Shown here: positions 33,336 to 39,456 of the stretch, in pieces
How the letters are laid out: each line of letters begins with the position of its first letter
Numbering within the stretch: position 1 is the first letter of the stretch
Assembly (NCBI GenBank): GCA_030594205.1
Contig: JAUVFR010000010.1
Location: forward strand, 1-39,456
Length of the DNA: 39,456 nt
Source: Methanobacteriota archaeon
GTDB taxonomy: Archaea; Thermoplasmatota; Thermoplasmata; RBG-16-68-12; JAJISG01
Reading direction: 5' to 3'
Position numbers and translations under genes: made by a program
Notes under the pieces: model-generated
Database searches by the model: none
Told to the model about the DNA's origin: nothing
Seen by the model: only the letters and a program-made list of their open reading frames with translations

Positions 33336-35078
33336 ATGCAAGCGACCTCGCCATGGAGAAAGCACGCTCCTTTCGTCATCTTCATGGCCGCCCTCTTCCT
33401 CCTGGCCTACTACCTCGACCAGAATCTGAACGCCTTCCTCCCGGCCCTCCACTCGGCCCGCATCCTCATCCAACTCGCCCTCGCGGCCACCGTCATCGCC
33501 ATCCTGCGGAACGTGGTGGGCATCAAGGCCTTCGGGACCTTCGCCCCCGTGATCCTCGCGTTCAGCATGCTCTTCACGGGCCTCGTCGTGGGTCTCCTCC
33601 TCTTCGGGGCCATCATCCTGGTCATCATCCTCACGCGTGGCGCGATCCACGGTCAACGAATCCAGCAGAGCCATCGAGCGGCCATCATGGTCCTCATGGT
33701 AGCCCTCGTCGCCACCCTCCTCACCGCCTACGCCTCCCGCCTCGGCCGACCGGAGATCGCCTTCGTTCTCCTCTTCCCCGTGGTCATCACGTCGTGGGTC
33801 GCCGACCAGTTTCTCATGCGGGTCTCCAAAGTGGGCTGGGGAGCTCCGACCAAGGCCCTCCTCTGGACCCTCCTCCTCGTGGCGGTGGCCTACATGGTCA
33901 TCACCCAGGCCTGGCTGGTGGACCTGGTCATCACGGAGCCCATGAGCTGGCCCCTGCTGGTGCTCCTCAACTGGTCCCTGGGCACCCGAGTTAAGATGCG
34001 GCTCTCGGACCGGCTCCGGTTCTGGCCCCTCCGACGGATCGAGGACGTCCTCCTCCAGGGGGGCGTCTCCGCCACGGTCCTCACGATCACCCAACGGAAT
34101 CGGAAGTACGTGGACCGCTACAACCCTCCTGCGGTCATGGGGAGTCTGAACAAGGCCCGAGCGAAGGCCCTCCTCATGGCGGAAGGCATCCCTGTCCCCG
34201 AGAACTACGCCCTGATCTCCACGAAGCAGGGGATGGACGAGGCGGTGGAGGTCTTCCTGCGGACGCCGACGTTCGTCGTGAAGCCGGCCAGCGGTTACGG
34301 CGGGGAGGGCATCCTCGTGGTCCATGGACGGCAGGGGAAGCTCTTCACGACCTCGCAGGGCCTTCTCCGCCTGGACGACCTCGTGTCCCACCTCCGGAGC
34401 GTCCTCGAGGGCGACTTCAACTTCGAAAAGGGCGACGAGGTTCTGATCGAGGCCCTCCTAACACCCCACGAGTTCGTGAAGCCCTTGGCTCCGAAGGGCG
34501 TCCCGGATGTGCGCATCCTCTGCCTCCTGGGCTACCCGGTGATGGCCATGCTGCGTCTCCCGACCATCGAATCCCAGGGGAAGGCCAACCTGCACTTGGG
34601 CGCCGTGGGGGTCGGCGTCGAGCTCGCAACCGGTACCGTTCGCTACGGTACGTGGAAGGGGGAAATCGTGAGTCGCCATCCCGACACCGGGGCGCGGCTT
34701 ACCGGGTTTGAGGTGCCCTTCTGGGAACAGATCTTGGAGATCGCGTCCGAGGCCCAGCGGATCTCCGGCCTGGGCTTCGCGGGGGTCGACATCGTCCTCG
34801 ACGCGCACAGCGGGCCGCTCGTGCTGGAGGTTAACCGACGCCCGGGGCTGGAGATTCAGAAGGCCAACGGGGTGGGCCTCCTCCCGCGGCTCCAGGCGAT
34901 CGAAGCGCTGCCGCAGCGTCAGGGGTCGGCGCAGGTGCGTGTCCTCAAGGCCATGGAGCTCGACCGCGTTGGCTGGGTTCCCACCTCTGGACGACGCGCC
35001 CCAGAGTCGGAGGATGCCGAGACCGCCCCTGAGGCACCGGTTCCGACGGTCTCTCCCGCCGGGGGGTCCCGCCGGTGA
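33336..35078 (+). CDS. 7TM domain fused to ATP-grasp ligase
   Basis: A 580-residue membrane enzyme. Residues about 10-240 form seven spans (FVIFMAALFLLAYYLDQNLN, ILIQLALAATVIAIL, FGTFAPVILAFSMLFTGLVV and others), resembling the 7TM module usually fused to an inactive transglutaminase. The rest is an ATP-grasp domain of the RimK / sugar-transfer-associated type: KARAKALLMAEGIPVPENYAL, FVVKPASGYGGEGILVV (ATP lysine and glycine loop), FAGVDIVLDAHSGPLVLEVNRRPGLEIQKAN (metal-binding Glu and Asn, ligase C-terminus). ATP-grasp enzymes make amide bonds, typically adding amino acids to a carboxylate. An upstream GTG at 33279 is possible, but a TATA-like CCTTTTACG (33298-33306) favours ATG 33336. Its stop overlaps the protease start. 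Confidence 0.85.
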   Translation: MQATSPWRKHAPFVIFMAALFLLAYYLDQNLNAFLPALHSARILIQLALAATVIAILRNVVGIKAFGTFAPVILAFSMLFTGLVVGLLLFGAIILVIILTRGAIHGQRIQQSHRAAIMVLMVALVATLLTAYASRLGRPEIAFVLLFPVVITSWVADQFLMRVSKVGWGAPTKALLWTLLLVAVAYMVITQAWLVDLVITEPMSWPLLVLLNWSLGTRVKMRLSDRLRFWPLRRIEDVLLQGGVSATVLTITQRNRKYVDRYNPPAVMGSLNKARAKALLMAEGIPVPENYALISTKQGMDEAVEVFLRTPTFVVKPASGYGGEGILVVHGRQGKLFTTSQGLLRLDDLVSHLRSVLEGDFNFEKGDEVLIEALLTPHEFVKPLAPKGVPDVRILCLLGYPVMAMLRLPTIESQGKANLHLGAVGVGVELATGTVRYGTWKGEIVSRHPDTGARLTGFEVPFWEQILEIASEAQRISGLGFAGVDIVLDAHSGPLVLEVNRRPGLEIQKANGVGLLPRLQAIEALPQRQGSAQVRVLKAMELDRVGWVPTSGRRAPESEDAETAPEAPVPTVSPAGGSRR

Positions 35079-36187
35079 CGGACGGGGACGATGCGGCCCG
35101 CCGCATGCGCGGTCAGGTACGCAGGGAACGGGCGAAGAAGGCCCTGGTCATCGTAGCTTTCCTGCTGGCTGGTGCCACAGTTCTGGCTCTCCTTGGGGCC
35201 GCCGGCCTGGTGCGGCTCCCTCTGGACCGACCGAGCCTCTCCGATGACTACGCCTGGATCGCGGGCCTCACGGGGTCAGACCAGATGACGTCCCTGGGGT
35301 ACGACGGGAGCGGCGTGACCCTCTGCCTGGTGGACTCGGGAATCGATCTTCTGCACCCGGACCTGGCGCGTGCCCGTCTCGTCGCGTGGAATGACTTGGT
35401 GAATCGCGAGCCGCTCCCCTACGACGACAGTGGCCACGGGACCTCCATGGCGGGACTCATCGCCGGTCAAGGGAATGTACAGGGCCTCGCGTCGGGGGTC
35501 TCCCTCATCGTCGCAAAGGCCCTCCGCGCCGATGGGACAGGGAGTTCGGACACGATCGGGCGGGCCATCCGATACTGCATGGATCCCGATGGGGACGGAG
35601 ACCTGCGGGACGGGGCCGACATCATCTCCCTCTCTCTCGGTGCCCAGAAGACGCCGTTCGTCACCAACGCGGCCGCGCGGGCCGCGCGGAACGCCACGGA
35701 GGCGGGCATCTTCGTCGTCTCCTCGGCGGGCAACGATGGTCTCCGGGACGACGGCGACGTAGGAACCCCCGCCAACGAGGCCCTCGTCCTCGCCGTGGGT
35801 TCCGTGAATCGGGATCTCGTGATCGCCCCGTTCAGCTCAAAGGGGAACAACAGCGCGCTCCAAACGCCCTCCCGCGTGGACCCGCACCGGAAGCCGGAAT
35901 TCACCCTCCCGGGCGTCGGTCTATTCACCACGACCGGCGGCGCATCCTACACGGCCATGAGCGGAACGTCGGCCTCGGCGGCCCTTCTTTCGGGACTCAT
36001 TGCCCTCCTCCTTCAAGCCCATCCGGAGGTCAATAAGATCGGCCCCAGCGCCGTGCTGGCGATGAAGATGGCCCTGATGCGGACGGCAGCCCCCTATGCA
36101 GCGCAGGTCCTGCCGCACGATGACTACTACGGCTACGGGCTCCCGCATGTCTACGATGCCCATCTCCTCCTGAGCGCAGGCGGCTGA
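35075..36187 (+). CDS. Membrane-anchored subtilase (S8 serine protease)
   Basis: A 370-residue subtilisin-family protease. A basic N-terminus and one span (ALVIVAFLLAGATVLALLGA, about 23-45) place the catalytic domain outside the cell. The catalytic set is intact: Asp87 in LCLVDSGID, His121 in DSGHGTSMAG, oxyanion Asn210 in SSAGND, and Ser299 in SGTSASA. There is no long propeptide. An Asp-rich calcium-like loop, DPDGDGDLRDGAD, lies near residue 170. The GTG start overlaps the ATP-grasp stop by 4 nt (GTGA), so the ligase and protease are translationally coupled, which suggests opposing or sequential action on one peptide substrate. Confidence 0.9.
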   Translation: MTDGDDAARRMRGQVRRERAKKALVIVAFLLAGATVLALLGAAGLVRLPLDRPSLSDDYAWIAGLTGSDQMTSLGYDGSGVTLCLVDSGIDLLHPDLARARLVAWNDLVNREPLPYDDSGHGTSMAGLIAGQGNVQGLASGVSLIVAKALRADGTGSSDTIGRAIRYCMDPDGDGDLRDGADIISLSLGAQKTPFVTNAAARAARNATEAGIFVVSSAGNDGLRDDGDVGTPANEALVLAVGSVNRDLVIAPFSSKGNNSALQTPSRVDPHRKPEFTLPGVGLFTTTGGASYTAMSGTSASAALLSGLIALLLQAHPEVNKIGPSAVLAMKMALMRTAAPYAAQVLPHDDYYGYGLPHVYDAHLLLSAGG

Positions 36188-36259
36188 AATCTCGTTCTGG
36201 CTATCAAATCCGACAACGGGGGAGGAGGCTTTTTCCACCCTCCGAGGCGACGATGGGAC

Positions 36260-36265
36260 GAGGTG
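36260..36265 (+). promoter_or_regulatory. Shine-Dalgarno before a TTG start
   Basis: GAGGTG lies 7 nt before the TTG at 36273 and supports that start for the small membrane protein. Confidence 0.5.
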
Positions 36266-36272
36266 CGAACGG

Positions 36273-36620
36273 TTGGAAATTGCGGAAGTGGGCATCCTCC
36301 TCTGGGGGGTCACCCTGGGATGGTTCCTCATGTTCGCGATTCGGCGGTACAAGGTCCACTGGGGCGCCTTCGGGACCTTCCTCTCCGTGATGATGGGTTC
36401 CACCCTGGTGAAGTTCCTCTATGCGACCGAACTGCTTCCCTGGTATGGCATCGGCATCTTCATCGGGGTCTTTGGCAACATGATCGCCCGGTTCTCCGGG
36501 ACCGTGGTCGGAGGCCGCGCGGGCCAGGGACTCCTGGAGATCTCCGCCTTCTCCGTGAAACCGAAGGGGACCGAGTCAGATGACGTGGGCCGAGATCCAG
36601 AAGGCGAAGGCGCGGCATGA
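36273..36620 (+). CDS. Small three-span membrane protein
   Basis: A 115-residue protein with hydrophobic segments VGILLWGVTLGWFLMFAI, WGAFGTFLSVMMGSTLVKFL and YGIGIFIGVFGNMIARFSGT, the last Gly-rich, then a polar tail ending EGEGAA. TTG start with a good Shine-Dalgarno sequence. It overlaps the following trypsin-like protease gene by 41 nt in another frame, so they are likely coupled. Its small size and place between two proteases suggest an adaptor or a substrate; this is inference. The 85-nt gap before it contains a GGAGG/CCTCC-flanked T run that could be a weak hairpin. Confidence 0.65.
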   Translation: MEIAEVGILLWGVTLGWFLMFAIRRYKVHWGAFGTFLSVMMGSTLVKFLYATELLPWYGIGIFIGVFGNMIARFSGTVVGGRAGQGLLEISAFSVKPKGTESDDVGRDPEGEGAA

Positions 36621-37578
36621 GCGAAGGCTCCTCCGCAAGCGGAACGTCGTCGGCCTGGCGGTCGGGAGGAAGGTCATCGGGGGGGAGGAGACCGACGAGC
36701 TCTGCCTCGTCGTCCTCGTCCGGAAGAAGCTTCCTGAAGCAGAACTCCGGTCCCGCGAACGGATTCCGAAGCGGATCAACAACGTCACGACCGACGTCGT
36801 GGAGACCGGAGAGCTGGAGGCCCTCGGGCAGAGACTCCACGTGGTTCGGCGGCCCGCGGACCGGTGGCGTCCCGCGCCAGGCGGGGTGAGTCTCGCCCAC
36901 GCGGACGTGAGCGCGGGTACCCTAGGGTGCGTCGTCCGTCGCGACTCGGAGCCCTTCATCCTTTCGAACAGCCACATCCTAGCCGACTCCGGACGGGCCA
37001 CACCTGGGGATCCCATCCTCCAGCCGGCGCCCGAGGACGGAGGGCGGGATCCCGGGGACGTCATCGCCCAGCTCTCGGACTTCGTGCCGCTCCGTTGGCA
37101 GTTGCGGGGCCTTGGTCGCCTCCTTCGCCCTTTCTTCGCCCGGCGGAACCTGGTGGATTGCGCGCTGGCTCGACCGGTGGGTGATCGCGAACTCCGGGGG
37201 GACATCCTGCGCATTGGCCCCGTGGAGGGGGTCACTGCCGCTTCCATTGGCCTCGGCGTGCGGAAGAGCGGGAGGACGACAGGAGTGACGCGCGGTCGGG
37301 TGACACACTTGGATGCCACCGTCATGATTCAATACGGGGATCGACGGGAGGCCCTGTTCACGGATCAAATTCTTACCACGGCGATGTCGAAGGGCGGCGA
37401 TAGCGGGGCCCTCGTGGTCGACCACGCGCGCCGGGCGGTCGGCTTGCTCTTCGCCGGGAGCGAGCAGGTCACGGTCATGAACCGGATGGCGCATGTGCTC
37501 TCGGAGTTGCGAACCGAGATCGTTCCTGGCCGCTTTCCTCGATCGAGTCGTCTGCTCTCCACTTTCGGTCCTCTCTGA
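36580..37578 (+). CDS. Trypsin-fold serine protease (Nal1-like)
   Basis: A 332-residue protein with no signal peptide or span. An N-terminal helical/strand region (about 1-95) includes VVGLAVGRKVIGGEETDELCLVV, as in Nal1-type proteins that precede a chymotrypsin-like fold. The likely triad is His132 in FILSNSHILA, Asp183 in NLVDCALARP and Ser265 in SKGGDSGALVV. Length and layout match bacterial/archaeal Nal1-like trypsin-fold proteins. Without an export signal it is probably cytoplasmic, in contrast to the subtilase nearby. The ATG at 36580 lies within the previous gene. It is followed 44 nt later by rfcS with its own promoter. Confidence 0.75.
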   Translation: MTWAEIQKAKARHERRLLRKRNVVGLAVGRKVIGGEETDELCLVVLVRKKLPEAELRSRERIPKRINNVTTDVVETGELEALGQRLHVVRRPADRWRPAPGGVSLAHADVSAGTLGCVVRRDSEPFILSNSHILADSGRATPGDPILQPAPEDGGRDPGDVIAQLSDFVPLRWQLRGLGRLLRPFFARRNLVDCALARPVGDRELRGDILRIGPVEGVTAASIGLGVRKSGRTTGVTRGRVTHLDATVMIQYGDRREALFTDQILTTAMSKGGDSGALVVDHARRAVGLLFAGSEQVTVMNRMAHVLSELRTEIVPGRFPRSSRLLSTFGPL

Positions 37579-37622: not shown

Positions 37623-39456
37623 ATGGAACAAGTCTGGGTGGAGAAGTACCGACCCAGGAGCCTGGGAGAGGTCATCAATCAGACCGACATCGTGCCCCGG
37701 CTCCAGGCCTACGTGAAGACCCGAAGCCTGCCCCACCTCATGTTCGCCGGGCCGGCCGGGACGGGGAAGACCACGTCGGCCATCGCCCTCGCCCGCGAGT
37801 TGTTCGGGGAGGACTGGCGGGGAAATTTCGCACAGACAAACGCCAGTGTGGCTCCTGAAACGCCATGCCTGGTGCGAATTCACGGACAGGTTGAACGAAC
37901 GACATTTGGAACCCTCGCCAGAGAGAATTTCAACCAGGGCGACGGGAAGTACGCGGAACTTAGAGACTTCGACGTCCTATCCGTGGACCAACGATATCGG
38001 GTCCGCTTCTTACCGGCGACCCTTCTCTCGCGCCATCCCTGTGATGAACTGATTACGGTACGCTACGAGGGGGGCCAGGTCCGGACAAGTCCGGCCCACT
38101 CAGTAATGGTCTTTGACCAGACTGGCGGCATGACCTCGAAGAGGGCGGACACGCTGCATCCAGGTGACCTTCTCATCGGGTTTGCGGATGACCTTGCGGG
38201 CTTCCCGCAGACGCTCCCTGTTCTGGAGTTCTCCAAAGTATGGGAACTCGGCCCTTATTTCAACCCACGGGCGAAGAGAAACTTTCGATTCTACGAGAAC
38301 CTGGCCCTGAATCACCGGCTGTCATGGCTCATGGGGCTCTATCTGGCAGAGGGCTGTTCGATCATGCACAAGGGCGATACCTCTGGGGGAATCATATTTA
38401 CCGTTGGCTACCCGGAAGAATTCTCCGTGGCCGAACGGGCTGCTCTCATCCTTAACAGCGAACTAGGCCTACGCCCTACCCTCCAAGTGGCCTCATCCGG
38501 ATTCGACAGGAACCGTTTCTCCTCCATGCAGGTCCGTGCGCTGAATACGCAGCTGGGCCGGTTTTTCCGCCATCACTTTTACAACAAGGGCCAGAGGAAG
38601 AACGCACGAGCCAAGCGCGTCCCGGCCTTCGTCTTTGCGGCCCAGCCCGAGATTCGCAAGAGCTTCCTCAAGGGTTACCTGGGGGACGCTTCAGGGGAAT
38701 GGGGCCGGTACGTGCGTTATTCCTCTCGGTCGCAAGATGGCTTGGTGGATGTCGCCTGGCTGGGCCGCGTATCGGGACTGCATTCCAGTACCTTTGAGGA
38801 AGAGTCGCGCCTCGTCTGGCCCCCGGAAGGACCTCGAGCCCACTACCTGCCTGATTTGGTCCCGTCCTCGCTCGTACACGAGCTCTTTCGCCGTCTGGGA
38901 ATGCAGGAGACGTATTTCCTCAGACATTCCCTCTACTCCAAGAAATCGAAGCGGATGTCGAGAAGTGCAGTTCTCAATAAGCTGGCTGATCTCAAACCAG
39001 TCCGATCTGAGGTCTTTGCTTCGCGCATCCTGCGAATCCTGAACTCGCCCCTCTATTCAGTACGAGTGAATGATGTCCGACGAGCGCGGTATGACGGCGA
39101 CGTCTACGACGTTACGGTACCAGGTAGTCAGACATTCTGGGGCGGCACGACGCCGGTTCTCCTTCACAATAGCGACGCGAGAGGCATCGACGTCATCCGG
39201 ACCACGGTCAAGAACCAGGCCCGCATGGCCCCCATCGGAGAGGGGGGCTTCAAGATCATCTTCCTGGACGAGGCAGACCACCTCACCAACGACGCCCAGG
39301 CGGCCCTCCGACGCACCATGGAGATGTACACTCGGACCGCCCGCTTCATCCTCTCGGTGAACTACTCCAGCCGCATCATCCCCCCGATCCAGAGCCGCAC
39401 CGCCGTGTTCCGCTTTCGTCCCCTAAAACCGGAGCACGTTCAGGAGTACATGAAGC
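37623..39456 (+). CDS. rfcS: Replication factor C small subunit, intein-containing, cut by window edge
   Basis: The clamp-loader small subunit, an AAA+ ATPase that loads PCNA. The N-extein (74 residues) starts [20 protein letters not shown] and has Walker [15 protein letters not shown]. After a 442-residue intein, the C-extein resumes with [18 protein letters not shown], Walker [14 protein letters not shown], sensor 1 [13 protein letters not shown] and the RFC-box region [15 protein letters not shown], still open at the window end. Splicing restores NA-SDARGID, the RFC NASDERGI motif. The whole frame from 37623 to 39456 has no stop codon. Start is set by TATA and GGAGG. Confidence 0.95.
37845..39170 (+). 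other. Intein with LAGLIDADG endonuclease domain inside rfcS
   Basis: A 442-residue self-splicing insertion with Ser at position 1 (block [13 protein letters not shown]). Block B reads [11 protein letters not shown] with the expected Thr and His; a hinge-like [11 protein letters not shown] follows. The endonuclease blocks are [11 protein letters not shown] (38325-38357) and [11 protein letters not shown] (38664-38696); the second is a poor match because the Asp is one place early. C-terminal blocks are [12 protein letters not shown] and TTPVLLHN, followed by Ser+1. It is visibly more A/T-rich and has more varied codons than the host gene, as expected of a mobile element. Confidence 0.9.

Follow-up and report, generated by a model that had tools for sequence, protein, structure and literature searches.

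The window analysed here is a stretch of 39,456 nucleotides (GenBank assembly GCA_030594205.1, contig JAUVFR010000010.1) from a Methanobacteriota archaeon; it lies in a metagenome-assembled genome (MAG) of Thermoplasmatota, and its relatives are MAGs of Ca. Thermoplasmatota and Euryarchaeota. It carries two overlapping genes: gene A, in which a seven-transmembrane (7TM) module is fused to an ATP-grasp ligase, and gene B, which encodes a membrane-anchored subtilase. We are highly confident that A and B are functionally paired, since a B-family subtilase directly adjoins the ligase or is fused to it in 8/8 loci of the clade, in two orientations and with congruent trees. Judged by its domains, the pair looks like an archaeal variant of an Rlo-like system, kin to the bacterial proteins RloC and RloB. 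The features of the pair are as follows.

Gene A, 33336..35078, + strand: 580 amino acids; 7TM module and RimK-type ATP-grasp ligase in one open reading frame (ORF).
7TM module of A, 33351..34052, + strand: residues ~6-239; PF14402 match at 41-232; model helices at 6-239.
ATP-grasp ligase domain of A, 34074..34904, + strand: residues ~247-523; PF14397 match at 253-523.
Gene B, 35075..36187, + strand: membrane-anchored S8 subtilase; triad D87/H121/S299, oxyanion N220.

The best supported start of gene A is the ATG at 33336, and the homologue at locus L007 begins at the same point. Both domains of the single ORF exceed their cut-offs in Pfam profile searches, PF14402 (7TM_transglut) with 67.3 bits (cut-off 25) and PF14397 (ATPgrasp_ST) with 216.5 bits (cut-off 31.4), which bears out the 7TM/ATP-grasp fusion of the preliminary description made from the DNA letters. 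Two curated families score below their cut-offs: TIGR02291 (alpha-L-glutamate ligase-like protein) reaches 278.2 of the 314.2 bits needed and TIGR00768 (RimK family) 49.4 of 143.4, A being also fused to a membrane module. The inactive transglutaminase domain PF14400 has no match in A or in a 964-residue fusion at locus L017 (P0001). The predicted structure of A has a predicted local distance difference test score (pLDDT) of 89.5 and a predicted template modelling score (pTM) of 0.85, and the solved structures nearest to it are RimK poly-alpha-glutamate synthetases (top match 5zct; TM-score to target ~0.5); a fold search with the whole protein gave solely ATP-grasp proteins among the 50 matches listed, none of them informative on the 7TM fold. 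The ATP- and metal-binding residues K316, R393, D485, E498 and N500 are invariant across an alignment of 36 rows, 8 archaeal and 28 bacterial, so the ligase of A is not a dead copy; these residues are common to A and bacterial RloC. The ligase domain presumably lies in the cytoplasm.

The stop of A and the start of B overlap in the sequence GTGA at 35075-35078, just as first read. PF00082 matches B with 156.7 bits (cut-off 21.8), and the catalytic triad is invariant in 11/11 aligned rows. Hydropathy gives one N-terminal membrane segment, residues 23-41, and the positive-inside rule predicts that the catalytic domain lies outside the cell. The earlier reading of a membrane-anchored subtilase with D87/H121/N210/S299 was thus right in its anchor, D87, H121 and S299, and its oxyanion residue is corrected from N210 to N220. 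PatA-type and mycosin subtilases share the S8 family with B and are linked to export systems; B falls below both curated cut-offs, with a weak match to PatA proteases (29.9 bits, 421 needed) and 116 bits against 279 for the mycosin family, and its linkage is to an ATP-grasp ligase.

The pairing of the two genes is seen across the whole clade. An alignment-based scan of genome contigs, which succeeded where a scan with the single protein returned none, recovered A homologues in 6/400 genomes of the class and on two soil MAG contigs (L013, L017), giving eight clade loci. A and B are co-directional in the window (with the GTGA overlap), L007 and L013, and stand tail to tail in L008, L009, L010 and L011. 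At L017 they form a single uninterrupted 964-residue ORF in the order 7TM-ligase-helix-subtilase, with both active sites present and with PF14402, PF14397 and PF00082 each above cut-off; a hydrophobic helix (626-644), preceded by basic residues, lies between ligase and subtilase, and the model of this fusion (pTM 0.48) is too poor to place the domains. Trees built separately for A and B resolve three identical groups (window and L007; L008 and L010; L009, L011, L013 and L017); because the trees agree, A and B were co-inherited and their pairing outlasted orientation changes, of which the three groups imply at least two with adjacency maintained. Furthermore, among the 37 genomes of the order, B homologues above 400 bits occur in 6/6 genomes with A versus 2/31 without (hypergeometric p ~1e-5, uncorrected for relatedness). 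Those two homologues in genomes lacking A adjoin ftsZ, the G006 case being read from a matching gene row rather than from the family scan, and a third, weaker B copy (372 bits) lies beside ftsZ in the window's own genome. All genomes with A-B are MAGs, and the eight loci form a small, non-independent sample.

As a separate observation, B-family subtilases lie near ftsZ and proteasome genes at L138 6409-7461 (G000:C14:28384-29448), L136 and L137; this neighbourhood occurs in G000 and G010, with a similar gene row in G006, and the ligase is absent from G006 and G010.

The bacterial Rlo system influences stress tolerance, biofilm and antibiotic response. The known system nearest to the pair, RloABC of Pseudomonas aeruginosa, consists of the retropepsin RloA, the inactive transglutaminase-7TM protein RloB and the ATP-grasp protein RloC (PMC12239564). 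Losing either rloB or rloC restores growth to an rloA triple mutant that is impaired under hypoosmotic stress, and RloA cuts glutamate chains of eight or more in vitro (PMC12239564); a model in which RloB and RloC make something that needs processing by RloA fits these findings. Genetic suppression linking protease and ligase to one pathway comes from P. aeruginosa only (PMC12239564), and a gene for an inactive transglutaminase-7TM protein was also among the hits of a vesicle screen (PMC12096838).

In bacteria, adjacent genes encode RloB and RloC with the domains and order found in A, and A shares with RloABC the succession of PF14402 and PF14397, identical ATP/metal residues and a linked protease whose predicted site of action is outside the cytoplasm. 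The pair differs in being archaeal, in having the 7TM module and ligase fused, in lacking a transglutaminase domain (PF14400 is present in bacterial loci L050 and L028) and in having a subtilase in place of the retropepsin. An RloA-type retropepsin stands immediately upstream in 25/73 bacterial loci, and 0/73 contain a B-type subtilase at any place; the retropepsin family PF05618 is found at none of the archaeal A loci, with one weak genomic match on another contig (G000:C16). The eight loci, their two orientations, the triple fusion and the intact ligase residues shared with RloC support the proposal of an archaeal variant in which ligase and 7TM module are one protein and a subtilase replaces the aspartyl protease. 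RimK/RimB, the system that poly-glutamylates ribosomal protein S6 and includes a retropepsin, also pairs ligase with protease, and RimK is the closest solved fold among the matches listed; the target of RimK, however, is a cytoplasmic protein, RimK carries no membrane module, and the score of A for the RimK family falls far short of the cut-off. A fusion of RloB and RloC was also seen in a bacterium, Arenimonas daejeonensis (L028 8948-11653), as a 902-residue ORF that includes the transglutaminase domain.

Other archaeal forms share the 7TM-ATP-grasp fusion. A phylum search with PF14402 found it in three further Thermoplasmatota genomes (L154, L155, L156), with a gene for an alpha/alpha-toroid protein before it in each and, after it in L154 and L155, a gene for a transglutaminase-core protein with serine at the catalytic cysteine position (hand alignment); the L156 contig breaks off within the fusion. 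The row of toroid, 7TM-ligase and transglutaminase-like genes is conserved in archaea (L154 4350-9813; L155 6326-11972). Compared with A-B, these loci (L156 in part) lack an adjacent subtilase; their fusion has the secreted toroid protein on one side and, as a protein of its own, the transglutaminase-like one on the other. An unannotated 589-residue 7TM-ATP-grasp fusion also lies among transposases on plasmid CP007061.1 of Halobacterium sp. DL1 (L174 6842-8608), with no protease recognised nearby. The ligase tree puts the toroid-type fusions together with bacteria and groups the window type with archaeal ligases that stand alone (94/91 support); because the tree splits the fusion types, the fusion may have had more than one origin, or the 7TM module may have been lost in some lines. 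The standalone archaeal RloC-like ligases (L044, L168-L173) were considered as further A-B loci and rejected, with no B adjoining them. Those at L168, L169, L171 and L173, from another Thermoplasmatota order, adjoin a nucleoside phosphorylase-type gene, and a C25-family peptidase lies near the one at L168.

Downstream of B lie two further genes.

Gene C, 36273..36620, + strand: small membrane protein, partner of D; judged to be outside the A-B system.
Gene D, 36580..37578, + strand: trypsin-fold protease with a putative NAL1-like N-terminal domain; H132/D193/S275; judged to be outside the A-B system.

C and D overlap by 41 nucleotides (36580-36620), in agreement with the preliminary description. 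That text also gave C three spans: it is indeed a short membrane protein, with two spans above the hydropathy threshold (3-21, 54-72) and a third hydrophobic stretch (~31-50) visible by eye only. D has a trypsin-like triad that is invariant across an alignment of nine homologues; H132 was correctly assigned, and the partners once placed at D183 and S265 are D193 and S275. PF13365 scores 23.4 bits on D (Pfam cut-off 27.6) and NAL1_N is likewise below Pfam cut-offs with the single sequence; a nine-sequence profile of D matches NARROW LEAF 1 (NAL1) structures at positions 21-136 with E 7e-12. Hydropathy predicts no membrane segment in D.

Genomes of the sister family f5 preserve the order purA-ttuA-(another gene)-C-D-rfcS with A-B absent from it, and all four f5 genomes that have both pairs (G005, G025, G028, G032) carry them on different contigs. 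C and D are adjacent in 20 genomes, the majority without A. A-B occupies the space from ttuA to C in the window's family, and the order A-B-C-D is confined to the window and its single same-family genome. It follows that the row of four genes is a local juxtaposition, and we judge C-D to be a different pair that is not part of the ligase system. The suggestions that the trypsin-fold protease belongs to the system and that C is its substrate or adaptor therefore find no support: C belongs with D and is unlinked to A-B outside the window's family. The linkage of proteases to the ligase in relatives accordingly holds for the subtilase and fails for the trypsin-fold enzyme, which is scattered.

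Between ttuA and rfcS, the small membrane protein C and the protease D, which resembles plant NARROW LEAF 1, make up an archaeal pair that is itself conserved (window 36273-37578; L139, L141, L142, L145), and D has paralogues elsewhere in several genomes. A homology of C to the 7TM module, raised by a common AFGTF motif, was rejected (hhalign probability 2% over 25 columns). Relatives match only the first 97 residues of the window's rfcS (37623-39455), which continues for more than 500 further residues of intein-like appearance; a second contig of the same assembly (L147, G000:C4) carries an uninterrupted 319-residue gene whose start is 95% identical.

What the pair does can be modelled on RloABC, and we give an even chance to a Rlo-like two-gene system whose product is made inside the cell, handled by the 7TM module and cut outside by B. 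The cytoplasmic ATP-grasp domain of A would join amino acids by ATP-driven amide bonds, most likely glutamate, a building block suggested by the relationship to RimK and RloC, and the product may be a peptide chain or amino acids added onto a carrier. The fused 7TM module would retain this product at the membrane and present it or pass it across; B, anchored by its single N-terminal helix with the catalytic domain outside, would cut or trim it, thus taking the role that the secreted retropepsin RloA has for RloB and RloC in Pseudomonas. What is observed is the domain composition, the intact active sites, the recurrence of A with B at each clade locus down to a one-chain fusion, and the kinship to RloC and RloB; the membrane topology, the transport through the 7TM module and the cleavage by B are predicted. 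A bolder version, in which the inner ligase and outer subtilase form a membrane-spanning writer-and-trimmer that builds and cuts an archaeal surface peptide or polyglutamate product, its halves connected by a single membrane module and, in one lineage, part of the same chain, is tentative; no comparable archaeal surface system was found in the open literature searched. The removable peptide tag first proposed as the product is unsupported.

Several points weigh against the Rlo-like model. The window's clade lacks the transglutaminase-like domain, which may bind substrate in RloB, and the substrate, product and transport of A-B are all putative. Subtilases are usually broad in specificity, and a preference of B for acidic chains is putative as well. 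B-family subtilases adjoin ftsZ without A and, because the fusions at L154-L156 and L174 lack an adjacent subtilase, the fusion as such does not require one. Finally, the taxonomic labels of the soil MAGs behind L013 and L017 may be wrong: by contig name both loci belong to the soil series of G028, so they are possibly misbinned.

PatA-type subtilases remove the leader in cyanobactin systems, and A-B might similarly mature a gene-encoded precursor that the ATP-grasp enzyme modifies in graspetide-like fashion, the 7TM module exports and the subtilase frees of its leader. The joint occurrence of ligase, exporter-like membrane module and subtilase, the weak PatA match of B and the presence of PsnB among the fold matches of A speak for this; yet no common third gene stands beside A-B in the co-directional, convergent or fused loci (ORFs below 60-70 residues were not searched), and the ligase is much nearer RloC/RimK than PsnB, which leaves precursor maturation rather unlikely. 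We also consider it unlikely that B regulates A by cleaving an extracytoplasmic 7TM loop or a bound partner and so turning ligase activity on or off under osmotic or envelope stress: the L017 fusion and GTGA overlap would suit a cis-acting protease, and the bacterial counterpart is responsive to hypoosmotic stress (PMC12239564), but the 7TM loops in the model of A are short and offer few cleavage sites.

Joint action of all four genes, with C as a small membrane adaptor and D as a second protease, draws on their co-directional, tight spacing in the window and L007; it is very improbable given that C-D sits in the purA-ttuA-C-D-rfcS block of relatives without A-B there, lies on another contig than A-B in all four f5 genomes, is common without A, and that D has no predicted membrane segment. 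Least credible of all is that A and B are neighbours by chance or general operon packing with no joint action, for although B-family subtilases also occur elsewhere, beside ftsZ, such packing would hardly yield 8/8 loci, two orientations, one fusion and congruent trees.

The Rlo-like model thus remains our preferred reading, and the archaeal loci, with a common 7TM-ligase core and differing outer partners, reveal which parts of Rlo-type systems are fixed and which are swapped. In archaea the outer partner is a subtilase, a transglutaminase-like protein with serine for cysteine, or none, and these swaps point to a product that is made within the cell and handled on its outer side. If this is true, the natural ligase-subtilase fusion would be one gene combining synthesis, export and cleavage.

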